From Intestinibaculum porci (GTDB lineage Bacteria > Bacillota_I > Bacilli_A > Erysipelotrichales > Coprobacillaceae): a DNA stretch of 64,000 nt. The stretch is taken from the NCBI RefSeq assembly GCF_003925875.1, contig NZ_AP019309.1, positions 1,860,001 to 1,924,000 on the forward strand, given 5' to 3'. The position numbers were made by a program, and so were the translations under genes. The notes under the pieces were generated by a model, which was not told the DNA's origin, did no database searches, and worked only from the letters and a program-made list of their open reading frames with translations. Shown here in pieces: positions 35,401-61,312 of this stretch (positions are counted from its first letter, which is position 1; every line of letters starts with the position of its first letter).

Positions 35401-37041
35401 TTATTCTCCCTCTGGCTCAAACATTTCTGGCATATTCAATAAAATCATATTTGCCTGTTCTCTAACATTCTGATTATTGCATTCAAGCAAATTTCTGCTG
35501 AGAAGTAATTTAGATCCGCTTTCCTGCAATATGTACTTATCCCTATGGCTTCGTATATAAGTCGCGTTTTCGCGCGTGAATCCAATGCGCTGCAGGAGAA
35601 TAGTCACAGGCTTTGTTGTCCCGTATTCCACATATTCGTACCAGTTGTTGTCAAATTCCGTGACGCCATGAATCTTCTTATATTCATTGGAGAAGCGCAG
35701 AAAATAGTTCGACAAACTGAAGAGGATGATGTTGTCGATAACTTCCAGCGTGTCTGCAAAGAGAATATTTCGGAATTCGACGTTATCCTTGTAAACCATT
35801 GTCTGCGTTTTGTTTATCCAGAAATTATCTGGATGCTGCACATGGTGACGAATGCCTTGTCTCATAATGTTGCTCAGGCCTAATCCGGACATCCACTGGA
35901 TTAGTATGACTGCATACCAACGCAGCTTCTTATGCACGCCATCCGTAACTTTACCGAGAGTGGAATACTCGTATTTCTCCCATTTGAATATCGTGCATAG
36001 CTTCTCAAGGAACCCGACAACTTCATTATAATCAAATTCTCCATTTACTGCTTTTGGGTATTCGAGGCCATTTCGTATCGCAATGATAAGATTCCGTGTC
36101 TGGTCCGCTGATACGTTGATATCATCGTCTGGAAGAGCAATCGGGTCTTCGAATTTCTGCTTAATAAGAGCAGCATCATCTTTGCTGATCAAATCGGAGA
36201 AAGACTGACGAACAAGACTGTTATTATCCGTCATGATGTCGCGAAGAAGAATCAGGCCGAACCTTCTCATCATGATATAAGATTCTTCAGACTGAGTCTT
36301 GTTTCTCTTTACAAGCTCAATATTTCCCTCTTTGAGGGCTTCTACAATATATTTTCTTTCCGGGTTAGTAAGTGTCTTAGGCCCAGCATCGATAGAAAGC
36401 GTCTGTTCCGGCACCGGTTCTTTAAGCATCTTTACATATTCGGTCTCAGGGAGCTTTTCATCCTGAGATGACACAAATATTACATTTCCATAAAGGTTAT
36501 ATTCAATTCGCCCGACACGACCGATGAGATTCCTGAAGTCAACAGGAGTCATACGAGACCGGAATATCTTGTTATCTGTTATGAACAGATTATCCGCCGG
36601 CAGATTAACACCCTCAAGCAGTGTACTAGTACAGAACATAGTCGTGATCTTACCCTTACGGAACATGTCCTCGATCCTCATCCGTATTGCCGCAGGCAAG
36701 TAGCCAATATGATAGGCGATGCCTTTTCTGATAATCTTGGCAAGATAGTAGTCTCCATGCACTTCGTTTGCGATGTCTCTTGAAAGGACTGCCAAGTCTT
36801 CGTCATCCAATTCATCGAGATACTGAGACAAATCGAGAGCAGCTTCTACTGCTCGTGCCTTCCCGTTAAAATAGACGATCGTCTGTCGCATAGCATCTTC
36901 CAGCAGATCATCATTCCGACGTTCAATCTTGAGAAGAAAATGCGTCAGCGTCGCCTTGTTCTGTGGAATGCTTATTATGTGCATTTTCTTCTCAGTATGT
37001 TCGTTATAAACATAAATCTCACGATTCTGTAGATCCAGAAA
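35401..37041 (-). pseudogene. hamB: hamB helicase, C-terminal part, cut by IS66
   Basis: Codons 337-882 of the Hachiman helicase. It continues exactly where the N-terminal part stops: after one copy of the target duplication is removed the reading is VKF then FLDLQNREIYVYNE with no frame change. This part carries helicase motifs such as TSTLLEGVNLPADN and NLIGRVGRIE, the Arg finger motif VI. An internal ATG at 36984 opens the piece, but the ATPase half is absent, so it is inactive alone. Confidence 0.9.
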
Positions 37042-37141
37042 GAACTTTAGTAAGCGTATGAGGTAATATCCATGAAATTAGTTATGCCTTCTATTAGAAT
37101 TATTAATGTATCAAATTATTCTAATAGGGAGGCTTTTGCAT

Positions 37142-37564
37142 ATGTATTTTTCGGAAAAGGATTGCAAAATGATCATTAAATGGACTGGCATTATTGAAAA
37201 TCAGGGAAAAAGCGGTCTTTCCTTAGCTAAATGGTGTACCAAAAATAATGTTGGTTTAAGTACACTGTCACATTATAAAAAGATTATCAGGGATCTCATG
37301 ATAAAACACGGAATCAGCACCTACAGTGATTTAAGATCACTGGCAGAGCGCAGCTGCCAAAACAATAATATTGACCCGTATCGGGGTGACGGCAACGGCA
37401 CTTTTTATTCTGTTGATTTAAATGACAGTTCTCCTCAAACCGGTAATAGCGTCTCCAAATCGTCAGGAGTGAGACTTCAGAAGAATGGATTTGTCATTGA
37501 GATTGATTCACATTTTGATGAAGAAACGCTGACAAGAGTTATGGCGGTGGTTAAAAATGCTTAG
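37142..37564 (+). CDS. tnpA: IS66 TnpA-type helper protein
   Basis: 140 residues. A helix-turn-helix-like N-terminus typical of IS66 TnpA (WTGIIENQGKSGLSLAKWCTKNNVGLSTLSHYKK) with a second half that fits the accessory DNA-binding role. The chosen start is the ATG at 37142 with GGGAGGCTTTTGCAT ahead. It overlaps tnpB by 8 bp. Identical in copy 2. Confidence 0.88.
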   Translation: MYFSEKDCKMIIKWTGIIENQGKSGLSLAKWCTKNNVGLSTLSHYKKIIRDLMIKHGISTYSDLRSLAERSCQNNNIDPYRGDGNGTFYSVDLNDSSPQTGNSVSKSSGVRLQKNGFVIEIDSHFDEETLTRVMAVVKNA

Positions 37565-37895
37565 AGAACTGACAGGCATCAAAAGAATTGTAATAAGAAC
37601 CGGAAAGACTGATCTGCGCAGAGGCATTACCGGTCTGGCTTCAGTTATAGCCGCTGAATATCATATGAATCCGATGGAAAAAGGAACCATTTATCTTTTC
37701 TGCGGTGGCAGAAGAGATCGTATCAAGGGGCTTCTTTACGAAGAAGGCGGATGGGTTCTTATCTATGTCCGACTTTCAAAAGGAAGTGCCTTTCAGTGGC
37801 CTAGAGATGATCAGGAAGCTCGTGATATAACGCGTGAACAGTACGAAAGACTGTTGGACGGATTTACTTTGGATGGTACAATAAATAAGCGCTGA
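37557..37895 (+). CDS. tnpB: IS66 TnpB (Orf2) helper protein
   Basis: 112 residues of the IS66 Orf2 family: IKRIVIRTGKTDLRRGITGLASVI, YLFCGGRRDRIKGLLYEEGGWVLIY and the final RLLDGFTLDG block. Required with TnpA for IS66-type movement (family knowledge). Starts inside the end of tnpA. Confidence 0.92.
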   Translation: MLRELTGIKRIVIRTGKTDLRRGITGLASVIAAEYHMNPMEKGTIYLFCGGRRDRIKGLLYEEGGWVLIYVRLSKGSAFQWPRDDQEARDITREQYERLLDGFTLDGTINKR

Positions 37896-38028
37896 TAAAG
37901 GAAATATCACTCCTCTGATGGTAATTCAAAACTGAACAATATAGTGATATTATATTCGCTTAATATCACTATTATCTTGAATTTTAGTCTTCATAGTGTT
38001 ATAATAGTATATAGGACGAGGTGATGGA

Positions 38029-38397
38029 ATGGCTATCATCAAACAGACCAACAAGACTACAGGCATTACCTATGTCTACGAGTCTAAGAGCTACTGGGAT
38101 CCTGAAAAGAAGCAGGCTCGCTCCAAGCGAAAGCTGATCGGAAAAATTGATCCCGAAACCGGCAAAATGGTCCCCACCGGCAAAAAAGGTCCACAGAAGA
38201 AAAAGAGCGGAGAACCTTCAGCTGCCGAGAGGAGACAGTCAGCCGAATTAGCCAGACTGAAAAAGGAAAATATGGATCAGATGATATTAATCACTGATCT
38301 TCGCAAGCAGATAGAATCATTAAGCAGCCAGAACACAAAATTAAAGCAGCTGATTAGTGAGATCAGACAGCTAACCGTATCGTCAGAGGAGATCTAA
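38029..38397 (+). CDS. IS66-associated small protein
   Basis: 122 residues between tnpB and tnpC. The N-terminal part (TNKTTGITYVYESKSYWDPEKKQARSKRKLIGK, in pieces) is a basic DNA-binding-like region; the C-terminal part is a coiled coil ending in SEEI. A close relative of the same plan sits at 63362 before a different IS66-like transposase, so this extra gene is a conserved part of these elements. Starts with a GAGGTG site and its own promoter-like AT region in front. Confidence 0.8.
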   Translation: MAIIKQTNKTTGITYVYESKSYWDPEKKQARSKRKLIGKIDPETGKMVPTGKKGPQKKKSGEPSAAERRQSAELARLKKENMDQMILITDLRKQIESLSSQNTKLKQLISEIRQLTVSSEEI

Positions 38398-38407
38398 ACG
38401 TAACACT

Positions 38408-40306
38408 ATGAAGGCAGACAGCGCATATTTTAAACAGCAACTGAATAAAATGAGTTATGCGGACCTGATTGCGGTTGCTTTAAAATATTATGAAGAGTGC
38501 TGCGGATTACGTGCCGAACTGGATGAATTAAAAAACACATTCAGCTACACAGCCGATGAGCTTAAGAAGGTTAAAGCCGAATGCGAAGATCTAGTTATAA
38601 GAGTTAACACTCTTAATCATGAGAATACCAGACTTCAGAATCAGACGGATGAGCTCAAAAAGAATCGCTTTGGAAGAAAGTCTGAAAAGATGAATGGCAA
38701 AATCCACGATGATGAGTTTAGCGACCCTCTTTCGGAAGAAATGAATGAAAGCGACTGTGATGGTAAAAAACAGAATAATAATGACAGCCAAAAATCCAGG
38801 AAAATAAAAAGACCTGCCTGCAGGCAGCTAAACAGGAAAAAGAAGACCAGACAGATACCAGAAATAACGATTATTGACTTTGACAGGGAGCGTATCGATA
38901 AAGAATACGGCTACGGCAAATGGACATTAAAAGGCTGGAACATATCCGAAGAATTTATGTTTATTCCAGGAAATCTCTACAGGGTATATGTCAAACGCCC
39001 AGTGATCAGAGTCTATGACGATGATGATACTAATGATTTACGCGAAGTGGCACTGCCGGTTAATAAGCTGATGTTAAGGAGCAAGGTTACGCCTTCACTG
39101 CTGGCTTTTATCATGTCTTTCAAATTTGTGCTGGGAGTTCCCCTGGCAAGGCTGTCAAGGGTTCTGTCATATCAGGGAATCAACCTGTCAAAAGAGATAA
39201 TGTCAGACTGGGTCATTAAATGCACTGACAGATATCTAAAGCCAGTCTATAGCGAGATAATGAGACAAATGGCCTGCCGGACATACACCCAGATTGATGA
39301 AACCTATCTGGAAGTCATCAATGACGGAAGAAATGCGGGAAGCAAAAGCTACATATGGTGTCATATCACTGGCGAATTTGAAGAAGAGCGGCCGCTGGCA
39401 GTCTTCTGCTTCGAGCTGACAAGATCAGCGGATCACCTTCTTGAGTTCTATGCGGATCTTAACGACGGCACAATCCATCTGACATCTGATGCCTACAGCG
39501 CCTATTATAAGCTGGCTTCGGAGAAAAAGGATCATGTAATACTCGGCGGGTGCTTTATGCATCTGAGACGCAGACTGTACAAGGCATATGAAGTGAAATT
39601 TAAAGCGGTAAAGGATAAAGAGCTTCTTGAGGAAAGCCCCGAAAAAAAGTGTCTCGATATGATCGGTGATCTTTACAGCGCTGATGATGATGCCAAAGAA
39701 CTTACCGCCAAGGAAAGAGCTAAAGTCCGAGACGAAATCGAAAGACCGCTTGTCGATGCATACTTTGATTATATCAAGTCCCTTGATATCAGCAGCGGCA
39801 CTTTTAGTGAGGAAATGGAGGATGCGGTGAGCTACAGCCTCAATCATGAGGATGCATTCAGAGTGTTTCTTGATGATCCAATGGTTCCAATCGATAACGG
39901 TGAATGCGAACGCAAGATTCGTAATATAGCCATGGTCAGAAACAATAGTCTGTTCTGCTATTCCATCGGCGGCGCTGAAACGCTCTGCATCATTATGACG
40001 CTTATTGAAACTGCCAAGTCAAACGGCTGCGATCCGCATACGTATCTGGAATATCTTTTCGAAAGCTCACTTGCCCATGCCAGCGTCGATATTAGCGAAT
40101 ATATCGATGAGATGATGCCCTGGTCAAGCGAATACCAAAAATTCGAGGAAGAGAGGTTCAGCAGACCGTTAGGGAAAATACCAGACTTCTGCACTGAAGA
40201 GCCTGAAATGCCAGTTAAAGCTGATGTGGATACTGCAAGAGCTGAAAGACGACACGCAATGATGACAGAAAATATAAATAGCACAACATCCAGGCCAGCG
40301 GCTTAA
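38408..40306 (+). CDS. tnpC: IS66 family transposase TnpC
   Basis: 632 residues. A leucine-zipper-like coiled coil opens (1-90), followed by a basic/zinc-finger-like stretch and the DDE core: TQIDETYLEV for the first Asp, LTSDAYSAYYK for the second and DNGECERKIRN with the catalytic Glu. The frame is complete, so the copy is probably active. The gene follows the 122-residue gene by 10 bp. Confidence 0.95.
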   Translation: MKADSAYFKQQLNKMSYADLIAVALKYYEECCGLRAELDELKNTFSYTADELKKVKAECEDLVIRVNTLNHENTRLQNQTDELKKNRFGRKSEKMNGKIHDDEFSDPLSEEMNESDCDGKKQNNNDSQKSRKIKRPACRQLNRKKKTRQIPEITIIDFDRERIDKEYGYGKWTLKGWNISEEFMFIPGNLYRVYVKRPVIRVYDDDDTNDLREVALPVNKLMLRSKVTPSLLAFIMSFKFVLGVPLARLSRVLSYQGINLSKEIMSDWVIKCTDRYLKPVYSEIMRQMACRTYTQIDETYLEVINDGRNAGSKSYIWCHITGEFEEERPLAVFCFELTRSADHLLEFYADLNDGTIHLTSDAYSAYYKLASEKKDHVILGGCFMHLRRRLYKAYEVKFKAVKDKELLEESPEKKCLDMIGDLYSADDDAKELTAKERAKVRDEIERPLVDAYFDYIKSLDISSGTFSEEMEDAVSYSLNHEDAFRVFLDDPMVPIDNGECERKIRNIAMVRNNSLFCYSIGGAETLCIIMTLIETAKSNGCDPHTYLEYLFESSLAHASVDISEYIDEMMPWSSEYQKFEEERFSRPLGKIPDFCTEEPEMPVKADVDTARAERRHAMMTENINSTTSRPAA

Positions 40307-40737
40307 CAGCCGCCGGCCTAGGAGTGCTTGTTTTGGGTTTTATTAATATCCCGGGCAAAAAGAATTGCCTTAATCGATTAATATGCAGCCTGCTGAAGAC
40401 AGCTGAAAGATCATAAATCTATGCAAACACTAACCAGACATAGTACCGCTAGCAGATCAGACTATGAAGTTATATCTTTATTACACTGATCCAGCCCGCA
40501 GCAGCCTTCAGGCATAACAAAAAAGTAAAATCAATACTCTGAATAAGATGTCATTAATATAACTTAGCCAAATTAAACACCCCCGGCAACACTGTTAGCA
40601 GCAGTAGCTGGGGGATTTCCATTAAAAGTTATATTTATTCAAGTTAGAGAGTAACCGGTTTAAAATCAAAAATCATGCTTATATAGATTTTAAATTATCA
40701 TAATTTTGTAATTATGGATATTTAATCTAACGCTTAC

Positions 40738-41745
40738 GAACTTTACTTGCGTTACGGGTGAAAATTCTGTTCTAAACCTTTTGTCCCCATGCTCACTGAT
40801 ATCCGTCAGAAGTCTTAAATAGACTTCTGGATTCGGGACATTCGGAGAAGCAAAAATGAAGTGCGGCGGATTGTCTCGATTCTTAAGCATGTCGACGGTC
40901 TTGTAATAGAACGGGCCACGACTGTTCTTGCCGGACATCTTATGCGCCTCATCCACGAAAAGATAGTCAATCTGAATATTAGGTTTTCCAATAAGCAGAT
41001 ACAGAAGTCGTTCCGGCGTCAAAACAAGGATGAAGTTGTGGTTTCCCTCGAGAGCAATATCACTTGCAGCATTGACGACCTTGTAGTTTTTCTCCTCCAA
41101 AAGATCCTTTAGATCCTCCTTGATGATCTTCTGAGAAGTTTCGTTGATCAGCGCCTTGGTCGGAACAATAATCGCAAAGTTCAACTTAGCATCTTTTGCC
41201 ACTTGCTCCTTGATGAACATCCTCATCAGGAAGGATTTTCCCATTGACGTTGGCGCCGAGTAACTGAAATAGGAATCCTGCAGGTGATCATAAGCCTGTT
41301 TCTGTGCGCCAAAAAACCGCAGGTTCGGTGCTGCCGGAATTCTAAGATAGTCCTTCTTGTAATCCGAGAAAATTCGATTCAAGACAAATGGGTCCTCGAA
41401 GTTGGCATCAAGAAGCGAAGTCCCTCTTGCATTATCTGTATTCGCAAAAACCGATCCAGCCACAACTCGGATTTCATCGTTCTTTGGATATAATGCATTT
41501 AAGAGGACGACAATTTCCTGAGCCCACATCTTATGCTGTTCAGCTTTATCTGCGCTATTTGATTTAGAAAGCAGGTCCGCAAAACGCAGCGCATTATGGA
41601 TATTAACGTTCCGATATTCCATGCCCGTGCGAAGCGTTTTATTGGCATAGTTAAACAGGATATCTTCATATAACTGATTAAGATACCTGTTTTCCTCTAT
41701 GTCTGCGAATATTGCATCTCCGAGCCTGATTCTTTTTCTACTCAT
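40738..41745 (-). pseudogene. hamB: hamB helicase, N-terminal part, cut by IS66
   Basis: Codons 1-336 of the Hachiman helicase, starting at ATG 41745 (RBS GCGGAGG). The DEAD/DEAH core is in this half: Walker A APTSMGKS at 164-171, DEAH at 265-268, FASPN (motif III) at 298-302. IS66 insertion after codon 336 adds 15 foreign codons and a stop. HamB together with HamA confers broad phage resistance, so the Hachiman system is probably off. Confidence 0.92.
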
Positions 41746-41762
41746 ACAATCACACCTCCGCT

Positions 41763-42689
41763 TCACATCAGCAGGTTTTCCATAACCTGCTTTTTGTCCA
41801 GCTTTGCATCGTTGAAAGGCACGATGTAAAAGTAAAACGAGTGTGTATCAAGACCAAGCGTCTTTATTTTGTCCGCAATATACGCGACATGGTTCTTAAT
41901 GTCAGTATCCATCTTAGTCCCCAGATCCTTGAGAAATTCCGGTGTAGACCTTGTATGCGGATCAAGGCCAAGAGAATATCCAAGAAAGACACCGTAAGCC
42001 CGGTCGTTCGCAACAGGAGCTCCTGGTTCAGGAATAATGATGCTTTTCAGTTTATTCACGATATCCTCATCAAAAGAGTCGTTCAAAGAGCGATTGTCGA
42101 CAAACTGGATTCCGTTCCCGTTTTCATTTTCAATACGCACTATGGCATCAAAGGCACTGTCTATTGCATCCGCAATATCACCCTCGATGTCTGAGGTTCC
42201 AAACACTGTCTGGTAGTAGGACATGCCGGTAGCATCGCCAAGATCAAGAAGATGGACACTATCGCAGGCCGTGCCAAATGGAGTTGTTCCAGCATTCAGC
42301 TCAACTTTGCTGAATATCTTCGGAGCATTGAGCTTTTCCTCGAGAAAAGCATACAGGAGAATCTCTCCGAGTTCGTTTCCTGTCCCTTTCTCGTTTGCTG
42401 CTCCGTTGTGCTTCATGACCCGGAGTGCCTTGTTCCCTATGCTGCGAGGATTGCCGACACCTGGTTGTGACAGCTTCTCTATCTGGGCACGAGAGAAAAC
42501 ATACTCACTGATAATGTCCGTCAAATAATCTTCAAGGCTCGTGTACACAAAGGCATTATTGCTGACCTGCAGTCGAAAAAGGCGCAGTTGTTCCAGGTTC
42601 CGCAATCCAAGCTTTTCATTGTGCATTACTTCAGTAAAAACAGAATCCATACTTACATCAGGTAATGATCTGCTGATAGGGTTTTCCAT
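41763..42689 (-). CDS. hamA: Hachiman HamA (DUF1837) nuclease
   Basis: 308 residues of the DUF1837/HamA family, intact. The central region with NELGEILLYAFLEEKL, then KIFSKVELNAGTTPFGTACDSVHLL, carries the PD-(D/E)XK-like residues expected for the nuclease; HamA cuts DNA when released from HamB. Starts at 42689 after AAAGGAGACGC. It lies 26 bp after hsdR and its stop overlaps the region of the hamB start. Without a working helicase partner, loose nuclease activity is possible, a point worth testing. Confidence 0.9.
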   Translation of the reverse strand: MENPISRSLPDVSMDSVFTEVMHNEKLGLRNLEQLRLFRLQVSNNAFVYTSLEDYLTDIISEYVFSRAQIEKLSQPGVGNPRSIGNKALRVMKHNGAANEKGTGNELGEILLYAFLEEKLNAPKIFSKVELNAGTTPFGTACDSVHLLDLGDATGMSYYQTVFGTSDIEGDIADAIDSAFDAIVRIENENGNGIQFVDNRSLNDSFDEDIVNKLKSIIIPEPGAPVANDRAYGVFLGYSLGLDPHTRSTPEFLKDLGTKMDTDIKNHVAYIADKIKTLGLDTHSFYFYIVPFNDAKLDKKQVMENLLM

Positions 42690-42715: not shown

Positions 42716-45700
42716 TTACTCATCTTCGTATTTCTTGAAGTTCTCAGCCTGCTCCATGACCTTTTCAAAGACTTCCTCATCCCATTCTGGCGGGTATCCA
42801 TTTTTATAAAGAAGTACAGTCAAGTCCATGTTAAGCTGATTCTTGATGTCATCTCGTGTCGACCAGTCGGCAAACTGTGCTTTATCGTCAACAAGCTCCT
42901 TGATTTTTTTAGCCAGCACGATGCATTTATCGTCCGCGTACGGGAAAACGTGGTCATCGCGGACTTTTACAAGGATGTCATAGAACGCCTTCTCCTCGAA
43001 TGTAATACCCATCTTAGAGAAAGAGTCCTGATCCTCCTTCAAATCCTTCATTATGTTGATGAGCTGATCAGAAAGATCATTGACGAAATCAGCGACCACC
43101 TCGCTCGTGAATACGAGTTTGTCGCGACTATTATAAGCATCGACCACCCGTCTCAAGCGCTCGTCAAATTCGATTGCCTTTACCTTGTTCGTACGGCCAT
43201 AGGCTGTGATTGCTTTCTTCAGAAGCTTCAGAAGCGCATTGAACTTGGTAATAGGCAGCTTGACCTTCTTCAGTTCATCTACGAACTCATCGCTAAACAG
43301 ATCGACTGATTTATGCTCGTCAACGATATTTTCGATACCGGTACAGGTGATGGCGTCACGTACCATGCCTTCAACGACGCTGTTCATGACTTCTGCATCT
43401 GGCGCATTGCCTTTTGTCTGTTTGTAAATGATGGACCGGATCGCAAGGTAGAACTGAGCCGTGGCCGTTTCTTCGTCCGTCAGTTCGCCGGATGGGAAAC
43501 ATATCTGGTATGCGCTCTTGAGCCTGCGAGAAAGTCCCATGAAGCGCGTCTGCATATCTTTGCTGGTCTGTACGTATTCCGTAGCGGCATTCAGGCAGTT
43601 CAGTCGCTCCAGCGGCGTCCCGGTATAAAACTTCGTGGCATCAAATCCGGAAAGCAAATCGTTGATCATCGACAAGTGATTGCGAAAAATCGACAGAGAA
43701 ATATTCAGCTCATCGATTGGGCTTTCCTGCGGCCCGCCATACTTCTTGACCGCTGCCATCATGTCATTCTTGATACCGATATAATCGACGACTAGTCCTT
43801 TATCTTTGCCATCGAAAACGCGGTTGACTCTGGAGATCGTCTGAATCAAAGTGTGCTTCTGCAGTGGCTTGTCGATATACATGACAGCAAGAGACGGAAC
43901 ATCGAAGCCGGTAATCCACATGTCAACAACGATTGCTATTTTGAAATTCGAGTCATTATTTTTGAACTGCTTATCGAGCATCTTCCGGTAATCCTTTGTG
44001 CCGCAAAGATCGAACAGTTCCTTCTCATCGTTTTGACCCTGCGTAGCCACAAGGTTAATCTTCGGAAGCGCCACGAGCTTATCAAGCTGTTCGCGTGTCA
44101 GCTTGGATTCATCCTCGGCTTTCCTAGGAACCTTCCAATCCGGTCTTATTACCTGTATAGCTTTCAGCACCTTGAAAGCATTCTGCCTGTCAGAGCAAAC
44201 GATCATAGCTTTTTGCACGACGTCAGGCTTTTCGGCGCACAGTGATTCATAGTGCGAGACGATATCCGCGGCGAGCTTTTTAATTCGTTCCGGATGTCCA
44301 AGGATAGCGGACATCTTGCTCATGGCCCGCTTGCTTTCCTCTACCTGCTCCGGATTTGAACCTTCCTCAACGCACTGCTCGTAATACTTCTGGATTTCCT
44401 TCGCCTGCTCATCAGACAGGATGACACGGGCGAGACGGGGCTCATAAGCAATGCGCACGGTGATGCCGTCGTCACTGGATTCCTTCATCGTATAGCTGTC
44501 AACGACATCTCCGAATACAGCAACCGTCTCATCGATAGGTGTTCCAGTGAATCCACAGTAGGTAGCATTCGGAAAACTATCGCGCAGATACTTGGCAAAT
44601 CCGAATGTCGTGTAAACACCATTTTCTGTTTTCTTTAGCTTTGACCCGATATTCGTTTGTGTCCGATGTGCCTCATCCGAAATACAGATGATGTTGTTGC
44701 GGTCTGAAAGTAAACCAATCTTTTCACAGAACTTCTGTATAGTTGTGATATACACACCGCCGCTTGGTTTGTCCCTGAGAGTTTTCTCAAGATCATCACG
44801 GCTCTCTATGCTCCGGACATCCTCCTGATGCAGATAATGTTTTGCTGTCACAAACAACTCGGAAGTCTGCGTGTCTAGATCTTCGCGGTCCTCCAGAATG
44901 ATAATCGTGGGATTCTTAAATGTATCACTGTCGCGCAGCATGATAAGCCGAGACAAAAACAGCATCGTGTAGGTCTTACCGCATCCTGTCGCTCCGAAGT
45001 AGGTGCCGCCTTTTCCATCGCCGTCAGGCCGCATGTGCAGCTTGATGTTGGCAAGCATCTTTTCTGCGGCGAAAAACTGCGGATACCGGCAGACAATGAC
45101 GTCATCCTTTGAGCTGTCATCTGGGTAGAAAATAAAGTCGCGAAGAATTTTCAAGACCCGTTCTTTTACAAATGCGCCCTCTATCATAGTAAGCAAGGAA
45201 CTGATACCATTCGAGACCTTGTCTTTGTCATTTGCCCTGTTCCACGAGTAGTAGAACCGATAAGGTGTGAAGACACTACCCATTTTGGTATTCACTCCGT
45301 CACTGATGACGGACATAAAGCAATATTTTAGGAGATTCGGAATATCGCGCTTATAGCGGATTGTAATCTGCTCCCACGCGTCATGAATCGTCTTGTCTTC
45401 CTCGATTGCGGTCTTGAACTCGCAAATGCCTATCGGAATGCCATTGATGAAGATTAGCAGATCCGGTCGGCGCAGCCGATCGCCCTGAACAGCGTACTGG
45501 TTCACGACGCGGAAAACATTATTCTCCGGGTGATCGAAATCGATATAATCGATGTGCAGAGCGACATCATTGATATTATCCCTGACAAGATCGAACCCCT
45601 CCACAACAAGCCAAAAGGCCTGGCGGTTCGAATAGTAAAACGGCGTAGAGGGAATCAGCGTCAGCATGGTGATGATCTTCTCCATCTCCACATCGCTGAG

Positions 45701-45883
45701 GTTCTTGTCCGAATACTTCCGGTTCAGGAATGTGCGCAGATCGTTTTCAAGAAGGATGTCTTCAAAACGGCGGTGAATATCTTCGCCGTATGTATATTCG
45801 TATCCCTGTATCTGGAAAAGCTCTATGATGGCATGTTCCAGTTCGTCTTCTGTAAATTTGCCTTTTTCGAAGATATAATCCAC
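42716..45883 (-). CDS. hsdR: type I restriction endonuclease, R subunit
   Basis: 1055 residues. The N-terminal nuclease has the RPDLLIFINGIPIGICEFK block (Asp141, Glu155, Lys157 of the PD-(D/E)XK site). Walker A is GATGCGKT at 297-304 and DEAH at 403-406, followed by the rest of the SF2 motor and a helical C-terminus. It translocates DNA and cuts far from unmodified sites. GTG start at 45883 with GGAAGGAGG, 16 bp after hsdS. Full length, no lesions. Confidence 0.93.
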   Translation of the reverse strand: MDYIFEKGKFTEDELEHAIIELFQIQGYEYTYGEDIHRRFEDILLENDLRTFLNRKYSDKNLSDVEMEKIITMLTLIPSTPFYYSNRQAFWLVVEGFDLVRDNINDVALHIDYIDFDHPENNVFRVVNQYAVQGDRLRRPDLLIFINGIPIGICEFKTAIEEDKTIHDAWEQITIRYKRDIPNLLKYCFMSVISDGVNTKMGSVFTPYRFYYSWNRANDKDKVSNGISSLLTMIEGAFVKERVLKILRDFIFYPDDSSKDDVIVCRYPQFFAAEKMLANIKLHMRPDGDGKGGTYFGATGCGKTYTMLFLSRLIMLRDSDTFKNPTIIILEDREDLDTQTSELFVTAKHYLHQEDVRSIESRDDLEKTLRDKPSGGVYITTIQKFCEKIGLLSDRNNIICISDEAHRTQTNIGSKLKKTENGVYTTFGFAKYLRDSFPNATYCGFTGTPIDETVAVFGDVVDSYTMKESSDDGITVRIAYEPRLARVILSDEQAKEIQKYYEQCVEEGSNPEQVEESKRAMSKMSAILGHPERIKKLAADIVSHYESLCAEKPDVVQKAMIVCSDRQNAFKVLKAIQVIRPDWKVPRKAEDESKLTREQLDKLVALPKINLVATQGQNDEKELFDLCGTKDYRKMLDKQFKNNDSNFKIAIVVDMWITGFDVPSLAVMYIDKPLQKHTLIQTISRVNRVFDGKDKGLVVDYIGIKNDMMAAVKKYGGPQESPIDELNISLSIFRNHLSMINDLLSGFDATKFYTGTPLERLNCLNAATEYVQTSKDMQTRFMGLSRRLKSAYQICFPSGELTDEETATAQFYLAIRSIIYKQTKGNAPDAEVMNSVVEGMVRDAITCTGIENIVDEHKSVDLFSDEFVDELKKVKLPITKFNALLKLLKKAITAYGRTNKVKAIEFDERLRRVVDAYNSRDKLVFTSEVVADFVNDLSDQLINIMKDLKEDQDSFSKMGITFEEKAFYDILVKVRDDHVFPYADDKCIVLAKKIKELVDDKAQFADWSTRDDIKNQLNMDLTVLLYKNGYPPEWDEEVFEKVMEQAENFKKYEDE

Positions 45884-45899: not shown

Positions 45900-47033
45900 T
45901 CAGGCTCCTGCTTCTTCGAGGGAGCCTTTTATTAATATCGGGCACATGCTCTTGATGCGTTCTTTGAGACGATTACTAATTGATCTTCTGTCTATATAAG
46001 CTCGATAAATATCGACAATTGCCTTCTGTTCATCTATAGATGGAATCGGTATCTCTATTTCATAGAAACGGTCTAAGTCAAGATTGGAGCGCACACTTGA
46101 ATCACTCATAAACCAGCCTCGACGATCGCTCTCTTCACGTGAAAACCACATCATTATAAATTCCGGCAAGACCAGGTCCTTCTTTACTTCAAAAACCGTA
46201 TAAGCAGGCGAGACAATTATAGGTTTATCAGAAGTTTGAAGAGCGATGCGGATACATTTATCTCTACCCGTCTGCATGCCGCTATATGCAATCTGATTAT
46301 TTTGAACTATCTTATAACGATTGAGATTAATGTCTGTAGTGTTTGCGACCGTTGGCATAAATTGCTTTGTAATATTTATACCCTCAATATCTTCTATAGT
46401 TCCATCACTGTTTCTATTATCTATTTCATTAAGGAGCTCCCCGACAGCAATTGTATGTGCATGGTGTTTCTCCTTGTCCAAAATAGAATCAAATGCAATC
46501 TTCAAATCTTCCAGCCCGCGTTCATAGCTTTGCTGATTGACCAGCATGGCATTGTAGACATCCACGTACTTCTGCTGGATATTAAGCGGCGGAAGGTCGA
46601 TATCGATCTCACATATATCTTCCCAATTAAAGAATTCTGTTGAACTTCCCCAAGAATTAGTGATTACATACCTGTCAAATTCTGACCTCTTGAAAAACAT
46701 ATACAGCCATCTGGCTAAAAGGATTTTTTGCTTTGCTTCGTCAGTGATTCGAAATACGACATAGTCTTCCGTACATATCACGGGCGTCTCCATATCGTTA
46801 TAGGCGATACTGAACTTACTCCCGTTTCTTGAAGTCCTGTGATTGAAAACAAACTCATCTGGATACACAATTTGAAATTTACTTAAGTCTCTACCACTTA
46901 TATCGGCTTTTGTCGGCATAAGTTCTTTGAGGTTATTTACCCCGCGAACATCATCAATTCCATAAATAAGTTCAGTATTTCTATTGTCAAGAAGCTGTAT
47001 GAGATCACCCAGCTTATACTTAGTCAATGCCAT
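45900..47033 (-). CDS. hsdS: type I restriction specificity subunit S
   Basis: 377 residues with two target recognition domains. Each domain begins with a similar block (DNRNTELIYGIDDVRGVNN and DNRNSDGTIEDIEGINIT) and is followed by a conserved helical spacer (LPPLNIQQKYVDVYN and IPSIDEQKAIVDIY). The recognised site cannot be deduced. It overlaps the hsdM stop by 14 bp. The short first-domain spacer suggests a compact recognition sequence. Confidence 0.9.
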   Translation of the reverse strand: MALTKYKLGDLIQLLDNRNTELIYGIDDVRGVNNLKELMPTKADISGRDLSKFQIVYPDEFVFNHRTSRNGSKFSIAYNDMETPVICTEDYVVFRITDEAKQKILLARWLYMFFKRSEFDRYVITNSWGSSTEFFNWEDICEIDIDLPPLNIQQKYVDVYNAMLVNQQSYERGLEDLKIAFDSILDKEKHHAHTIAVGELLNEIDNRNSDGTIEDIEGINITKQFMPTVANTTDINLNRYKIVQNNQIAYSGMQTGRDKCIRIALQTSDKPIIVSPAYTVFEVKKDLVLPEFIMMWFSREESDRRGWFMSDSSVRSNLDLDRFYEIEIPIPSIDEQKAIVDIYRAYIDRRSISNRLKERIKSMCPILIKGSLEEAGA

Positions 47034-48657
47034 AGCCGATCCCCCTAAATGCTTCTTCGAGCATGGCCTGCGACTTCTTCTCGGTCTTCAAAACGACCTT
47101 CATTTCGCTCTGAATGAGGGACATTTCTTTTTCGTAATCAATGTCTAGATCATGGTCAATGAACTCGATGTATTTGCTTGGTGCGAGTGAGTAGTCCTTT
47201 GCTCGTATTTCGTCCAGTGTCGCTGATTGGCAAAACTCTGGGACGTCTTTATACAGGGAAGTGTCGTTGGACTGCCAGTTGTTGTAGACCTGCTTCACCT
47301 TGGTAATCTGCTCGTCGGTGAGGACGGTTTTCTTTTTCTTTTTGCGTTTGTCGATGACAATCTCTTCAATGTTCTGATTCCAGGTGCGCAGATCCATGAA
47401 AAGCACCTGATTCGTCCGATCACGCAGCTGTCTACCATTCACGGTTCCAGCGTGCTTATTCATGTTGACGATCCAAAGCGTCACGGAAATGTCCGTCGTG
47501 TAGAACATATCTCGAGGCAATACAATGATTGCCTCCACGAAGTCCTTTTCAAGAATCTGGCTGCGGATGGTTTTCTCATCGCCATCTGCATTCAGCGCAC
47601 CATTAGCAAGAAGGAATCCAGCGATGCCGTGAGTAACATCAAGCTTTGAAATGATGTGCTCCACCCATGCGTAGTTGGCGTTTGCCACCGGCGGTATAAC
47701 TCCGCCATAGCCCTTGAATCGCGGATCATCTGTCAGCTGATCCTTCGTGCGCCAGCCTTTAAGGTTGAACGGCGGATTGGCCATGACGTAGTCGACCTTC
47801 TTATCTCTATGAAGGTCATCCGTAAATGTGGAGGCGTTCTTTTCTCCGAGGTTATGTGCAATGCCACGAATGGCGAGATTCATCTTGCACAGCCGCCAGG
47901 TATCCGGATTGCTTTCCTGTCCGATAATGGAGATCTTCTGCCTGTTCCCTTTATGGCGATCAACAAATTTCATGGACTGTACAAACATTCCACCACTTCC
48001 ACAGCAGGGATCATAAACTGTCCCAGAATACGGCTCAATCATCTCCGCGATGAGTTTTACTACACATGCAGGCGTATAGAATTCACCGTCTTCCTTTGTG
48101 CCAGAAGCCGCATAGGCCTGTAAGAAGTATTCATATACGCGTCCAATCAGGTCCTCATCCTGAAATCGCTTCTTATCAATCTTATTGACGTTGTCGATCA
48201 GATCCTTAAGCTTTGCAGTTGTTGCGCCGAGCGTAGCAAAGAAAGTGTAGACCGAATTCCCATCCTTATCCCTTGATGACAATGCGCCCTTCAGAGAAGG
48301 ATTCATCCGCTCGATATCAGCCATAGCGGTGTCGAGAATAACCGCGATATCATTATCGCCTGCGTGCGCCACGATGTACGACCAGCGGGATGTCTCATTA
48401 AGGTAGAACACGTTGACGGAGTTATAGGACGAGACCTTGGCCTTCATGATATTAAACAGTCCTTCATCTGATCCATACTGTTCTTTCAGTTCCTGATAGC
48501 GCTTCTCGAATTTGTCTCCCGCAAATTTCAGGAAAACTAAAGAAATTACGGCGTCTCTATTTTTTTCTGTGCTTCCTATACCACGAAGCGCTACTCGGCA
48601 GTTCCATAGAACTGTTTCCAGCGACACTTCTTTATCTTTTTTAGCTGCTCTTGCCAT
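47020..48657 (-). CDS. hsdM: type I DNA methyltransferase subunit M
   Basis: 545 residues. The N-terminal domain (to about 150) is followed by the Rossmann-type methyltransferase: SAM-binding motif I DPCCGSGG at 216-223 and catalytic NPPF at 294-297 for N6-adenine methylation. The start is MARAAKKDK (ATG at 48657, AAGGAGAAATAAAAAT ahead), overlapping the end of the small HTH gene. A longer frame upstream has no ribosome site. Confidence 0.93.
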   Translation of the reverse strand: MARAAKKDKEVSLETVLWNCRVALRGIGSTEKNRDAVISLVFLKFAGDKFEKRYQELKEQYGSDEGLFNIMKAKVSSYNSVNVFYLNETSRWSYIVAHAGDNDIAVILDTAMADIERMNPSLKGALSSRDKDGNSVYTFFATLGATTAKLKDLIDNVNKIDKKRFQDEDLIGRVYEYFLQAYAASGTKEDGEFYTPACVVKLIAEMIEPYSGTVYDPCCGSGGMFVQSMKFVDRHKGNRQKISIIGQESNPDTWRLCKMNLAIRGIAHNLGEKNASTFTDDLHRDKKVDYVMANPPFNLKGWRTKDQLTDDPRFKGYGGVIPPVANANYAWVEHIISKLDVTHGIAGFLLANGALNADGDEKTIRSQILEKDFVEAIIVLPRDMFYTTDISVTLWIVNMNKHAGTVNGRQLRDRTNQVLFMDLRTWNQNIEEIVIDKRKKKKKTVLTDEQITKVKQVYNNWQSNDTSLYKDVPEFCQSATLDEIRAKDYSLAPSKYIEFIDHDLDIDYEKEMSLIQSEMKVVLKTEKKSQAMLEEAFRGIGYGID

Positions 48658-48661: not shown

Positions 48662-48880
48662 TTATTTCTCCTTGCCATCTTTGTTATTATCGTCGGACGC
48701 TCCGCCAGAGCGAATCCAATCGTCGACTTCGCTAAGCTTGAATTTCCACAATCGTCCAACCTTATATGCAGGCATGTTACGTTTGTTGATCCATTGCAGT
48801 ATGGTTTCACGTCCGACACCGAGATATGACTGTACATCTTTCAAAGCCACCCACGGTTCGACATTAAATCTTTCTTCCAC
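48662..48880 (-). CDS. excisionase-type HTH protein
   Basis: 72 residues, MerR/Xis-like winged helix: WVALKDVQSYLGVGRETILQWINKRNMPAYKVGRLWKFK with a charged tail. Starts at a GTG (48880) after GGAGGTAAAGGC. It stands just before hsdM in the same operon, a position often seen for small regulators or accessory DNA-binding proteins of type I systems. Confidence 0.85.
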   Translation of the reverse strand: MEERFNVEPWVALKDVQSYLGVGRETILQWINKRNMPAYKVGRLWKFKLSEVDDWIRSGGASDDNNKDGKEK

Positions 48881-48893: not shown

Positions 48894-49691
48894 TCAGTTC
48901 CCGAATGTTGTGTCTATCTCAACATCAAATATGTTTCTGCTTCCGGGAAAGCAGTTATTACCGTTTTCGTCTACCATATCCCACTTGATGGTGAATGGTC
49001 CTTCTTGGCCACGGGCATTGAAGTCCGTGGCTATTTTTGTATATTTTCCCGGCTGTAATTCCTTAATTTCTATTTCAAATACCTTTGTCCGCCTGCCAGT
49101 CTCCTCAGGATTGGCGCAGACCAGCTTACGTTTATGCCAGATGACGCTTCCTTGATTATGTATCACCCATGTGTGGTGAATGTCTTCATAGAATGCCGCG
49201 GCATGTTTTTTTGTCCGATCCTCCACCCATACATCATCACCATCATACAGGCGTCTTGTTATCTTATAGACGCCAGCTTCTTTTCGCACCCGAGCTTCCT
49301 CATATTTGTCCGGCACGATGTTTTCTGATTCTGTCTCCTCACGATTCGAGATGAATGCAACAACCTGCGCTGCCAGTGCGTAGGACAGGTATGACAGACT
49401 CTTCTCCTCATCAGCAGGAATTCCGAACGCATCCGCCAGCAGCTTTACATACTCCGGCTGCAAGTACTTCTCAAAGAAAGCAACAATGCTGTCAATGCTC
49501 ACTGGATGAGGGAAGTGCCTTTTCATGTTTGAGGCAAAAGGTTTAGTTCCGTTGAATACTGCTTTCAAATGATCATCGGAATAATCTCGGCGTATCCCTG
49601 CGGCCTTGAACAGGTCCTTCAGATACCAGGACTGCTTGTTATAGCCAAAATATTGTGGCTTCGTCAGCTTGCAGAACTCTGAAAAATCCAC
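48894..49691 (-). CDS. NBR1-Ig-like (FW) domain protein
   Basis: 265 residues, first gene of the defence operon. The C-terminal half (about residues 150-262) has the four-tryptophan-type immunoglobulin plan (HHTWVIHNQGSVIWHKRKLVC, GPFTIKWDMVDENGN) known from NBR1-Ig-like domains. The N-terminal half is a helical domain of unknown type (TKPQYFGYNKQSWYLKDLFKAAG). A function as an accessory sensor of type I restriction is inference. I use GTG at 49691, spaced from AAGGGAGG; GTG at 49700 is an alternative. Confidence 0.65.
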   Translation of the reverse strand: MDFSEFCKLTKPQYFGYNKQSWYLKDLFKAAGIRRDYSDDHLKAVFNGTKPFASNMKRHFPHPVSIDSIVAFFEKYLQPEYVKLLADAFGIPADEEKSLSYLSYALAAQVVAFISNREETESENIVPDKYEEARVRKEAGVYKITRRLYDGDDVWVEDRTKKHAAAFYEDIHHTWVIHNQGSVIWHKRKLVCANPEETGRRTKVFEIEIKELQPGKYTKIATDFNARGQEGPFTIKWDMVDENGNNCFPGSRNIFDVEIDTTFGN

Positions 49692-49796
49692 GCCGGACAC
49701 CTCCCTTCAAAAAGAACCATGAAAAGAACCAAAGAACCATGAGATACCTGGAACAGCCTATTTTGTGCTGTTTTTTGCCCTGTTATCTTATAGGTG

Positions 49797-49875
49797 GTGA
49801 ACGGCAGAACCGTTCAAAGGTTCACTGACTCAGTTCTAAGGATATCATTATATCAGAAAACAAGTCAGAAATCTA
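49797..49875 (-). promoter_or_regulatory. putative promoter and operator of the defence operon
   Basis: Minus strand -10 TATAAT (49852-49847), with a weak -35 TAGATT 17 bp away (49875-49870). Downstream there are nested inverted repeats: GAACGG/CCGTTC (49799-49815) inside GTGAAC/GTTCAC (49797-49825). A related motif lies at 50305-50329. This could be a repressor site controlling the operon. Confidence 0.45.
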
Positions 49876-50070
49876 CCGTATAGATGTTGTCTGTTTGTAA
49901 ACATTCATAAACATTCATAAACAGACAAAGTATCACTTTGAATGGAAGCTCCTTCACCGGCGGAATCAAAGGTCTCTTGATCACAGACCATCCAGTGAAA
50001 TTCCACCGAAGCAATAAACAACAAGGTCTCCTTCTCTGGAAAAGGAGCCAGCAAAACAAGGAGACAAAGT

Positions 50071-50265: not shown

Positions 50266-50304
50266 TTCAGTTAAGTATCACTCGCCCTGAGCAAGGCGTT
50301 AAAA

Positions 50305-50329
50305 GGTTCACCGCCATAGCCGTTCACCC
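50305..50329. repeat. GGTGAAC-type inverted motif
   Basis: GGTTCACC and its near-complement GTTCACCC around a GCCATAGCC centre. A relative of the palindrome at 49797-49825, so both may be sites for one regulator of the former element. Confidence 0.45.
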
Positions 50330-50498
50330 AGTGCACAGAGGTGGCTCGAGCGGTTGTAGCGGTCACAAATGAATAAGAAACCAGTCTACGAGCGTGGCTG
50401 GCCGAACAAAACAAGTTGATTCCCGTTCCGTCTGGCCTGTCACGCTCCTTCTTTTTGTGCGGCCTCTGGTTCAGGAGAAGCGAACGGAGGTATCGCAC

Positions 50499-50580
50499 AT
50501 GAAAACCAATGACAATCAGAGTAAACGCATCTACGATAAGACTATCAAGCAGTGCTACGAAATCCCGGAGGACCAGTTCA
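50499..50580 (+). pseudogene. truncated gene of the integrative element
   Basis: GGAGGTATCGCAC then ATG opens MKTNDNQSKRIYDKTIKQ, then CYEIPEDQF. The following DNA changes abruptly at GTGGCACGAGTT to the downstream region of the 63-residue gene copy C. Family members would continue with RNA-polymerase-sigma-like residues; this is only the first 27 codons. Confidence 0.5.
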
Positions 50581-50828: not shown

Positions 50829-50920
50829 GTAAGCGTATGAGGTAATATCCATGAAATTAGTTATGCCTTCTATTAGAATTATTAATGTATCAAATTATTC
50901 TAATAGGGAGGCTTTTGCAT

Positions 50921-51343
50921 ATGTATTTTTCGGAAAAGGATTGCAAAATGATCATTAAATGGACTGGCATTATTGAAAATCAGGGAAAAAGCGGTCTTTC
51001 CTTAGCTAAATGGTGTACCAAAAATAATGTTGGTTTAAGTACACTGTCACATTATAAAAAGATTATCAGGGATCTCATGATAAAACACGGAATCAGCACC
51101 TACAGTGATTTAAGATCACTGGCAGAGCGCAGCTGCCAAAACAATAATATTGACCCGTATCGGGGTGACGGCAACGGCACTTTTTATTCTGTTGATTTAA
51201 ATGACAGTTCTCCTCAAACCGGTAATAGCGTCTCCAAATCGTCAGGAGTGAGACTTCAGAAGAATGGATTTGTCATTGAGATTGATTCACATTTTGATGA
51301 AGAAACGCTGACAAGAGTTATGGCGGTGGTTAAAAATGCTTAG
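50921..51343 (+). CDS. tnpA: IS66 TnpA-type helper protein (copy 2)
   Basis: 140 residues, same protein as at 37142. Complete frame with the same ribosome site and overlap with tnpB. Confidence 0.88.
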   Translation: MYFSEKDCKMIIKWTGIIENQGKSGLSLAKWCTKNNVGLSTLSHYKKIIRDLMIKHGISTYSDLRSLAERSCQNNNIDPYRGDGNGTFYSVDLNDSSPQTGNSVSKSSGVRLQKNGFVIEIDSHFDEETLTRVMAVVKNA

Positions 51344-51674
51344 AGAACTGACAGGCATCAAAAGAATTGTAATAAGAACCGGAAAGACTGATCTGCGCAG
51401 AGGCATTACCGGTCTGGCTTCAGTTATAGCCGCTGAATATCATATGAATCCGATGGAAAAAGGAACCATTTATCTTTTCTGCGGTGGCAGAAGAGATCGT
51501 ATCAAGGGGCTTCTTTACGAAGAAGGCGGATGGGTTCTTATCTATGTCCGACTTTCAAAAGGAAGTGCCTTTCAGTGGCCTAGAGATGATCAGGAAGCTC
51601 GTGATATAACGCGTGAACAGTACGAAAGACTGTTGGACGGATTTACTTTGGATGGTACAATAAATAAGCGCTGA
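51336..51674 (+). CDS. tnpB: IS66 TnpB helper protein (copy 2)
   Basis: 112 residues, same protein as at 37557. Confidence 0.92.
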   Translation: MLRELTGIKRIVIRTGKTDLRRGITGLASVIAAEYHMNPMEKGTIYLFCGGRRDRIKGLLYEEGGWVLIYVRLSKGSAFQWPRDDQEARDITREQYERLLDGFTLDGTINKR

Positions 51675-51807
51675 TAAAGGAAATATCACTCCTCTGATGG
51701 TAATTCAAAACTGAACAATATAGTGATATTATATTCGCTTAATATCACTATTATCTTGAATTTTAGTCTTCATAGTGTTATAATAGTATATAGGACGAGG
51801 TGATGGA

Positions 51808-52176
51808 ATGGCTATCATCAAACAGACCAACAAGACTACAGGCATTACCTATGTCTACGAGTCTAAGAGCTACTGGGATCCTGAAAAGAAGCAGGCTCGC
51901 TCCAAGCGAAAGCTGATCGGAAAAATTGATCCCGAAACCGGCAAAATGGTCCCCACCGGCAAAAAAGGTCCACAGAAGAAAAAGAGCGGAGAACCTTCAG
52001 CTGCCGAGAGGAGACAGTCAGCCGAATTAGCCAGACTGAAAAAGGAAAATATGGATCAGATGATATTAATCACTGATCTTCGCAAGCAGATAGAATCATT
52101 AAGCAGCCAGAACACAAAATTAAAGCAGCTGATTAGTGAGATCAGACAGCTAACCGTATCGTCAGAGGAGATCTAA
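51808..52176 (+). CDS. IS66-associated small protein (copy 2)
   Basis: 122 residues, same protein as at 38029. Confidence 0.8.
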   Translation: MAIIKQTNKTTGITYVYESKSYWDPEKKQARSKRKLIGKIDPETGKMVPTGKKGPQKKKSGEPSAAERRQSAELARLKKENMDQMILITDLRKQIESLSSQNTKLKQLISEIRQLTVSSEEI

Positions 52177-52186
52177 ACGTAACACT

Positions 52187-54085
52187 ATGAAGGCAGACAG
52201 CGCATATTTTAAACAGCAACTGAATAAAATGAGTTATGCGGACCTGATTGCGGTTGCTTTAAAATATTATGAAGAGTGCTGCGGATTACGTGCCGAACTG
52301 GATGAATTAAAAAACACATTCAGCTACACAGCCGATGAGCTTAAGAAGGTTAAAGCCGAATGCGAAGATCTAGTTATAAGAGTTAACACTCTTAATCATG
52401 AGAATACCAGACTTCAGAATCAGACGGATGAGCTCAAAAAGAATCGCTTTGGAAGAAAGTCTGAAAAGATGAATGGCAAAATCCACGATGATGAGTTTAG
52501 CGACCCTCTTTCGGAAGAAATGAATGAAAGCGACTGTGATGGTAAAAAACAGAATAATAATGACAGCCAAAAATCCAGGAAAATAAAAAGACCTGCCTGC
52601 AGGCAGCTAAACAGGAAAAAGAAGACCAGACAGATACCAGAAATAACGATTATTGACTTTGACAGGGAGCGTATCGATAAAGAATACGGCTACGGCAAAT
52701 GGACATTAAAAGGCTGGAACATATCCGAAGAATTTATGTTTATTCCAGGAAATCTCTACAGGGTATATGTCAAACGCCCAGTGATCAGAGTCTATGACGA
52801 TGATGATACTAATGATTTACGCGAAGTGGCACTGCCGGTTAATAAGCTGATGTTAAGGAGCAAGGTTACGCCTTCACTGCTGGCTTTTATCATGTCTTTC
52901 AAATTTGTGCTGGGAGTTCCCCTGGCAAGGCTGTCAAGGGTTCTGTCATATCAGGGAATCAACCTGTCAAAAGAGATAATGTCAGACTGGGTCATTAAAT
53001 GCACTGACAGATATCTAAAGCCAGTCTATAGCGAGATAATGAGACAAATGGCCTGCCGGACATACACCCAGATTGATGAAACCTATCTGGAAGTCATCAA
53101 TGACGGAAGAAATGCGGGAAGCAAAAGCTACATATGGTGTCATATCACTGGCGAATTTGAAGAAGAGCGGCCGCTGGCAGTCTTCTGCTTCGAGCTGACA
53201 AGATCAGCGGATCACCTTCTTGAGTTCTATGCGGATCTTAACGACGGCACAATCCATCTGACATCTGATGCCTACAGCGCCTATTATAAGCTGGCTTCGG
53301 AGAAAAAGGATCATGTAATACTCGGCGGGTGCTTTATGCATCTGAGACGCAGACTGTACAAGGCATATGAAGTGAAATTTAAAGCGGTAAAGGATAAAGA
53401 GCTTCTTGAGGAAAGCCCCGAAAAAAAGTGTCTCGATATGATCGGTGATCTTTACAGCGCTGATGATGATGCCAAAGAACTTACCGCCAAGGAAAGAGCT
53501 AAAGTCCGAGACGAAATCGAAAGACCGCTTGTCGATGCATACTTTGATTATATCAAGTCCCTTGATATCAGCAGCGGCACTTTTAGTGAGGAAATGGAGG
53601 ATGCGGTGAGCTACAGCCTCAATCATGAGGATGCATTCAGAGTGTTTCTTGATGATCCAATGGTTCCAATCGATAACGGTGAATGCGAACGCAAGATTCG
53701 TAATATAGCCATGGTCAGAAACAATAGTCTGTTCTGCTATTCCATCGGCGGCGCTGAAACGCTCTGCATCATTATGACGCTTATTGAAACTGCCAAGTCA
53801 AACGGCTGCGATCCGCATACGTATCTGGAATATCTTTTCGAAAGCTCACTTGCCCATGCCAGCGTCGATATTAGCGAATATATCGATGAGATGATGCCCT
53901 GGTCAAGCGAATACCAAAAATTCGAGGAAGAGAGGTTCAGCAGACCGTTAGGGAAAATACCAGACTTCTGCACTGAAGAGCCTGAAATGCCAGTTAAAGC
54001 TGATGTGGATACTGCAAGAGCTGAAAGACGACACGCAATGATGACAGAAAATATAAATAGCACAACATCCAGGCCAGCGGCTTAA
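52187..54085 (+). CDS. tnpC: IS66 family transposase TnpC (copy 2)
   Basis: 632 residues, same protein as at 38408. Complete DDE frame, so both copies could move. Confidence 0.95.
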   Translation: MKADSAYFKQQLNKMSYADLIAVALKYYEECCGLRAELDELKNTFSYTADELKKVKAECEDLVIRVNTLNHENTRLQNQTDELKKNRFGRKSEKMNGKIHDDEFSDPLSEEMNESDCDGKKQNNNDSQKSRKIKRPACRQLNRKKKTRQIPEITIIDFDRERIDKEYGYGKWTLKGWNISEEFMFIPGNLYRVYVKRPVIRVYDDDDTNDLREVALPVNKLMLRSKVTPSLLAFIMSFKFVLGVPLARLSRVLSYQGINLSKEIMSDWVIKCTDRYLKPVYSEIMRQMACRTYTQIDETYLEVINDGRNAGSKSYIWCHITGEFEEERPLAVFCFELTRSADHLLEFYADLNDGTIHLTSDAYSAYYKLASEKKDHVILGGCFMHLRRRLYKAYEVKFKAVKDKELLEESPEKKCLDMIGDLYSADDDAKELTAKERAKVRDEIERPLVDAYFDYIKSLDISSGTFSEEMEDAVSYSLNHEDAFRVFLDDPMVPIDNGECERKIRNIAMVRNNSLFCYSIGGAETLCIIMTLIETAKSNGCDPHTYLEYLFESSLAHASVDISEYIDEMMPWSSEYQKFEEERFSRPLGKIPDFCTEEPEMPVKADVDTARAERRHAMMTENINSTTSRPAA

Positions 54086-61308: not shown

Positions 61309-61312
61309 AGCA

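Follow-up and report, generated by a model that had tools for sequence, protein, structure and literature searches.

The locus analysed here raises the question of what a protein carrying the Ig-like FW domain, the signature domain of the autophagy receptor NBR1, does as the first gene of a bacterial defence operon. An initial annotation of the window (the whole stretch of Intestinibaculum porci DNA under study, 64,000 nucleotides) had assigned such a domain to the C-terminal half of the protein, placed its gene at the head of a restriction operon and proposed that it recognizes something, for instance phage proteins or large assemblies. Our analysis showed that the protein, which joins an N-terminal helical domain (NTD) to the FW domain, is the head protein of a composite, prophage-borne cassette containing a small HTH_17 protein, an exchangeable restriction-modification module and a HamA-HamB pair with a lost HamA nuclease motif. 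Bacterial FW domains can thereby be placed in a specific, testable context among the defence genes of gut phages; a literature search, which covered few subscription papers, returned no description of an FW domain in a defence cassette.

Organization of the operon

The genes are arranged in the order NTD-FW, HTH_17 (MAD1-like), HsdM, HsdS, HsdR, HamA and HamB (Table 1), with successive intergenic gaps of 13, 4, -14, 16, 26 and -4 bases. The open reading frame of the first gene begins with GTG and is directly preceded by GGGAGG, a good ribosome-binding site. The type I restriction-modification system is complete within the operon, its HsdM, HsdS and HsdR genes including the methylase and nuclease motifs, and PADLOC recognized the Hachiman protein HamA (DUF1837) and the helicase HamB with 423 and 1197 bits, respectively. 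The gene is thus first in its operon as annotated, but the label of a restriction operon was incomplete because the operon continues into the Hachiman genes.

The small HTH protein resembles MAD1 of the MADS system (64.1 bits) and likewise sits 5' of a methyltransferase gene; however, the score is below the curated cut-off of 80, and the other MAD proteins are absent as such. HamB is split in the window genome after about residue 354 of 894, while it is whole in the related viral contig L009. With HamB broken, the components left whole in the window genome are the head, HamA and the restriction system. A GmrSD-type IV restriction protein (GmrSD_N and GmrSD_C, 33031-35385) lies directly past hamB and possibly belongs to the same defence cluster.

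Table 1. Features of the cassette and its surroundings, in window coordinates.
Feature	Position	Strand	Remarks
HamB, C-terminal part	35401..36984	minus	aligns with L009 HamB residues 363-889
IS66-type element interrupting hamB	37050..40737		ends approximate; 8-bp target duplication TAAAGTTC
HamB, N-terminal part	40690..41766	minus	aligns with L009 HamB residues 1-354
HamA	41763..42689	minus	PF08878, 111.8 bits; GEXK motif replaced by GTSD
HsdR	42716..45883	minus	PD...EFK nuclease and DEAH motifs
HsdS, specificity subunit	45900..47033	minus	
HsdM, N6 adenine methyltransferase	47020..48657	minus	NPPF motif
HTH_17 / MAD1-like small DNA-binding protein	48662..48880	minus	72 aa
First gene, NTD-FW protein	48894..49691	minus	265 aa
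FW / NBR1 Ig-like domain (predicted)	48906..49244	minus	residues 150-262; Pfam, structure, profile; invariant W155, W175, W185, W237
N-terminal helical domain, NTD (predicted)	49272..49691	minus	residues 1-140; AlphaFold2; common to other first genes
Leader repeat array	49714..49738	minus	GGTTC three times, at -47, -39 and -27 relative to the GTG start
Perfect 7-bp inverted repeat in leader	49798..49816	minus	TGAACGG / CCGTTCA
TATAAT-like -10 element (putative)	49847..49852	minus	read from sequence; implied leader about 150 nt
Divergent small phage gene	50071..50265	plus	64 aa; kept beside the cassette in related phages
Phage early-region remnant, sigma-factor-like gene	50266..50577	plus	DNA similarity to L009 ends here, near the second IS66 copy

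In L009 the cassette adjoins phage early genes encoding a DNA polymerase, DUF2800 and a sigma-like protein. The window retains only the divergent 64-aa gene and the remnant of the sigma gene, indicating a prophage remnant that was cut by a second IS66-type copy. This copy (about 50830-54500) ends the phage remnant and is 99.97% identical to the copy in hamB over 3677 bp. A composite IS66 transposon was considered and is unsupported, as the copy in hamB carries its own target duplication.

Two plus-strand matches to the DUF2800 RNA (Rfam RF02960), at 49958-50068 (29.9 bits) and 50311-50475 (29.8 bits), are both under the gathering score of 60.2, and this RNA was therefore rejected for the window; the related phages L019 and L098 carry it at 132 and 124 bits. 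Elsewhere in the window, two overlapping genes (57812-58720 and 58708-59409) with radical-SAM-like cysteine motifs (CxxxCxYCY) are located beside transposition genes, among which a TnsC-like ATPase was detected (60502-61326).

The C-terminal FW domain

The Pfam family PF16158 (N_BRCA1_IG) matched residues 170-248 of the window protein with 29.1 bits (E 1.6e-6), barely exceeding the curated cut-off of 28 bits, and this score taken singly is thin support for an FW domain. Relatives at about 30% identity scored 34.6-39.0 bits with the same family, and a family profile of the C-terminal half, compared by sequence only, matched human NBR1 (4ole, E 3.9e-5) and ILRUN (6vhi, E 6.4e-4). The AlphaFold2 model of the full protein (mean pLDDT 80.9) had 6vhi as its best solved neighbour (Z 12.1, 2.2 A over 104 residues), followed by 4ole (Z 10.9) and CtNbr1 (7vqo, Z 10.8). 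All three are FW domains, and the match lies chiefly over residues 150-263. Because the scores of the relatives, the profile matches and the predicted structure agree, the FW identity is firm, and the C-terminal half is a predicted FW (NBR1 Ig-like) domain, as the initial annotation had read it and as the structure prediction that it proposed bore out. Foldseek also paired the full-length model with multi-domain proteins at 13-15 A rmsd, and these pairings were discarded as alignment artefacts.

As a single query the window protein gave no match in a PDB sequence search; a PHROGs search gave no usable match, and no PADLOC model matched either the window protein or its relative L018. No Pfam family besides FW was found in the window protein, which differs from the eukaryotic NBR1 receptor in that no PB1, ZZ or UBA domain was found. 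The likeness to NBR1 and ILRUN consists of the Ig-like fold (Z 10.8-12.1) and three aligned tryptophans. Four tryptophans are invariant across the family, and W175, W185 and W237 are those that align with NBR1 and ILRUN; W155, which has an acidic neighbour (E157 or D158), is outside that alignment and occupies the position of CtNbr1 F651 in a hand alignment. The FW domain of CtNbr1, the one solved FW complex, binds an N-terminal di-glycine and the quaternary structure of its cargo (PMC9233695). By hand alignment its last-strand tryptophan (W763) is F or L in the present family, but W155 and its acidic neighbour are kept; the acidic-aromatic pocket for a free N-terminus may or may not be in use.

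The FW domain is older than eukaryotic NBR1 (PMC9582228), and in bacteria it is known from XRE-family transcriptional regulators (PMC9233695). The window protein shares with these regulators a bacterial FW domain, an N-terminal helical domain and a likely role as regulator, but its NTD is not recognizable as XRE and its gene is part of a phage defence cassette.

Relatives and exchange of the restriction module

The NTD-FW protein is rare, being present in one of the 392 genomes of the phylum sample, the window's own genome. A single-protein query of GTDB contigs found no relatives, and an alignment query was needed to detect them there; those collected were drawn from phage records, from IMG/VR and from three MAG contigs and are carried by Heliusvirales-type phages. 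The first gene of L009 is 97% identical to that of the window, and its operon is whole, with an intact HamB. Three lineages of the FW protein were distinguished, at about 30% identity and with invariant FW residues. In all of them the FW gene is the first gene and is followed by an HTH_17 gene.

The genes between head and tail differ. The window and L009 have a type I system, L012, L016, L019 and L007 a second, different type I system, and L006, L010, L017 and L018 a type III-like module of a ResIII/TnsA-nuclease and an N6_N4 methyltransferase. After the middle module, HamA and then HamB were found in every FW locus with a long enough contig. Since the FW-HTH head and the HamA-HamB tail are constant with three middle modules, the restriction module has been exchanged. 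The cassette thus has an architecture in which the head genes and the Hachiman pair are constant and the restriction module is swapped, and this exchange beside a kept Hachiman pair is suggestive of a sensing or regulatory role of the first gene. The homologues are tied to defence genes, and several directly to hsdM, in line with the linkage expected from the initial annotation.

The HsdS of the window is only 40% identical to that of L009 (9454-10578), against an identity of 96-97% for the first gene, HsdM and HsdR; the divergence of HsdS is, on the sequences compared, a specificity swap. In other genomes of the phylum, hsdM-hsdS-hsdR-hamA-hamB operons occur without the FW head (L073 5746-14793; L076 3860-14662). 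Judged from gene order, restriction plus Hachiman is a recurrent pairing. Other HamA-HamB pairs stand by themselves, or have a HamA that is extended at its N-terminus.

Loss of the HamA motif

In all FW-linked copies examined (window, L009, L006, L010, L016 and L019), the GEXK nuclease motif of active HamA is changed to GTSD or GTSS. GEAK or GESK is kept in several HamA proteins without head or extension, and GEXK is lost in the N-terminally extended HamA proteins that were aligned. Because the FW-linked HamA proteins are related, the loss may be one ancestral event. They are apparently catalytically dead. In each of the three module types the restriction subunits retain an intact nuclease motif (EFK, ELK and ETK); the restriction endonuclease is therefore the sole cassette nuclease with an intact motif and the likely cutter.

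Canonical HamAB is a DNA-damage sensor (PMC12278908), and in published protease-HamA fusions the loss of GEXK accompanies the recruitment of another effector (PMC12799240). HamA and HamB of the window, L009 and L006 belong to one PADLOC subfamily of Hachiman; the cassettes differ from Hachiman in the missing GEXK of HamA, in the attached restriction module and FW head and, in the window, in the broken HamB. The nuclease-protease Hachiman system HamMAB (PMC12799240) likewise combines a HamA that has lost the D-GEXK motif with an additional gene upstream, but neither a protease nor an MBL-fold nuclease was detected in the window operon. With HamA apparently dead, the kept Hachiman pair poses the question of what it now controls.

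Long HamA proteins of about 485-490 aa, with an N-terminal extension of about 190 aa, are encoded in L071 (536-1987), L072 (10940-12394), L078 (4390-5865), L080 (2950-4425) and L081 (469-1932). Several of these genes occupy phage hot spots of the FW-cassette type. A kinship between the NTD and this extension was considered, and hhalign found no relation.

The N-terminal domain

The AlphaFold2 model of the NTD is helical (pLDDT 85.4, pTM 0.84). It had no significant fold match in the PDB or among viral models; the best matches, at Z of about 3, include an XRE-type regulator over residues 1-60 and are at noise level. No HTH or other DNA-binding Pfam family was detected in the NTD. A classical HTH was rejected: Pfam and Foldseek gave no support, and eight residues, not a tight turn, separate the two helices predicted at 20-30 and 39-47.

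By profile comparison with hhalign, the NTD is homologous to the N-terminal region of a CTD11-bearing ABC-3C protein (E 2e-12) and to first genes of other phage cassettes (E 6e-6), with reversed controls at E 0.02-0.9. From one of these proteins, tblastn led to eight phage records and reached phages of Terrisporobacter, Erysipelothrix, Ruminococcus and Streptococcus. The one Streptococcus NTD protein scanned has CTD11 and is followed by a DUF2326 ATPase gene, and an NTD-CTD6 fusion was located by profile search. Since the NTD is joined to CTD11 or CTD6 in ABC-3C proteins, the FW domain occupies the place of the CTD. The cassette has the NTD and the phage hot spot in common with ABC-3C; it differs in that FW replaces the CTD, and no ABC-3C CTD, middle component or ABC ATPase was found among the operon proteins scanned. 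The NTD, for which there is no Pfam model, is a marker of first genes in several defence cassettes of phages and offers a handle for finding new systems.

Repeats in the leader of the first gene

The TATAAT-like element upstream of the first gene was not returned by a consensus promoter scan. The window's array of three GGTTC copies, considered by itself, is not significant (shuffle P 0.13). The leaders of the NTD genes are long; 3' of a TATAAT-like element, in the stretch 20-90 nt ahead of the start codon, a short word recurs about three to five times, as GGTTC in the window and as AGGAC, GGTAC, GGTTA, GTACA, AGGCT or CGGAC in others. A 5-mer occurring at least three times within 100 nt before the start was found for 12 of 13 NTD genes, which are partly dependent and all in one type of phage hot spot, compared with 15 of 108 other genes from the same loci (Fisher P 1.7e-8). 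Four or more copies were present in 5 of the 13 NTD leaders and in 1 of the 108 controls, and a looser score (6-mers, one mismatch) separated the two groups more weakly (P 3e-5). Among operons of the same hot spot headed by HTH_17 or HTH_26 genes, none of eight had a fourfold array and one had a threefold 5-mer; the arrays are thus associated with the NTD and not with the small HTH. The NTD gene of L098 had been found by profile before leader scoring, and its leader then showed four copies of CGGAC.

The repeats were also considered as codons of a leader peptide, which was rejected as their spacings are mostly no multiple of three, and as type III toxin-antitoxin repeats, for which the words are much too short. 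Direct repeats of AAGGTTC (L092, upstream of 5562 on the minus strand) and of TTGGGT (L078, about 4200-4245) are located 5' of the promoters of first genes without the NTD.

Possible functions of the head protein

We tentatively favour, at somewhat under an even chance, the reading that NTD-FW heads an exchangeable defence cassette as its regulator and sensor. The NTD would control cassette expression via the leader repeat array, and the HTH_17 protein may be a second regulator. By analogy with the solved FW complex, the FW domain would respond to a protein, the likeliest signal being a free N-terminus or an assembly. The restriction module would cut incoming DNA, and HamB with its apparently dead HamA would read DNA ends or damage. 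Such a role agrees with the sharing of the NTD by first genes of unrelated cassettes, with the arrays that accompany it and with the XRE-family regulators in which bacterial FW domains are known (PMC9233695). It is weakened by the lack of any DNA-binding family or solved-structure match for the NTD. The arrays could also serve a phage regulator, because the NTD genes were found in one type of phage hot spot, and the first genes of L092 and L078 have repeats without having the NTD, but upstream of their promoters. Moreover, fusion of the NTD to ABC-3C parts is expected of an effector-associated or coupling domain.

A serious rival, on balance unlikely, makes NTD-FW a direct component of the defence complex, as adaptor or sensor: the FW domain would bind either a partner encoded in the operon (the apparently dead HamA, HamB or a subunit of the restriction system) or a protein of the phage, and the NTD would relay the signal, much like the coupling through the C-terminal domain that is proposed for ABC-3C effector proteins. 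It would account for FW taking the position of CTD11 or CTD6, and is in keeping with the loss of the HamA motif elsewhere on recruitment of another effector (PMC12799240) and with the binding of a protein N-terminus and quaternary structure by CtNbr1 FW (PMC9233695). However, NTD-FW has no catalytic domain, the restriction module already supplies an intact nuclease, and the leader repeats accompany the NTD. Rather unlikely, too, is a further reading, in which the FW domain would sense protein ends or assemblies for an immune cassette carried by phages, with HamB and the catalytically dead HamA coupling the sensing of DNA damage to the exchangeable restriction nuclease.

The FW fold and the defence linkage on which the initial annotation built its interpretation have held, while recognition of phage proteins or large assemblies is possible but unsupported; the NTD and the leader repeats speak no less for a role in regulating the cassette than for recognition. 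That FW recognizes phage proteins or assemblies such as capsids and thereby triggers restriction is very unlikely in our estimation. Several phages have defence operons headed by FW proteins and the solved FW complex reads the quaternary structure of cargo (PMC9233695), but the present analysis gave no link to any phage protein, type I restriction requires no such trigger, and the bacterial FW proteins named in the literature consulted are transcriptional regulators (PMC9233695).

It is highly improbable that the head pair serves establishment, delaying restriction, like controller proteins, until the DNA of a new host is methylated. Such a delay would suit the first two genes of a phage-borne restriction cassette, the more so as the HsdS identity of 40% between near-identical operons implies that specificity often changes, and HTH_17 genes before methyltransferase genes are common here even without FW; the FW domain and the retained Hachiman tail are left unexplained by it. 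That the gene is a passenger of the phage hot spot with no defence role would fit its rarity in the phylum sample and is hardly credible, given invariant FW residues at about 30% identity in three lineages, a constant first position with an HTH gene, and HamA in FW loci wherever the contig is long enough.
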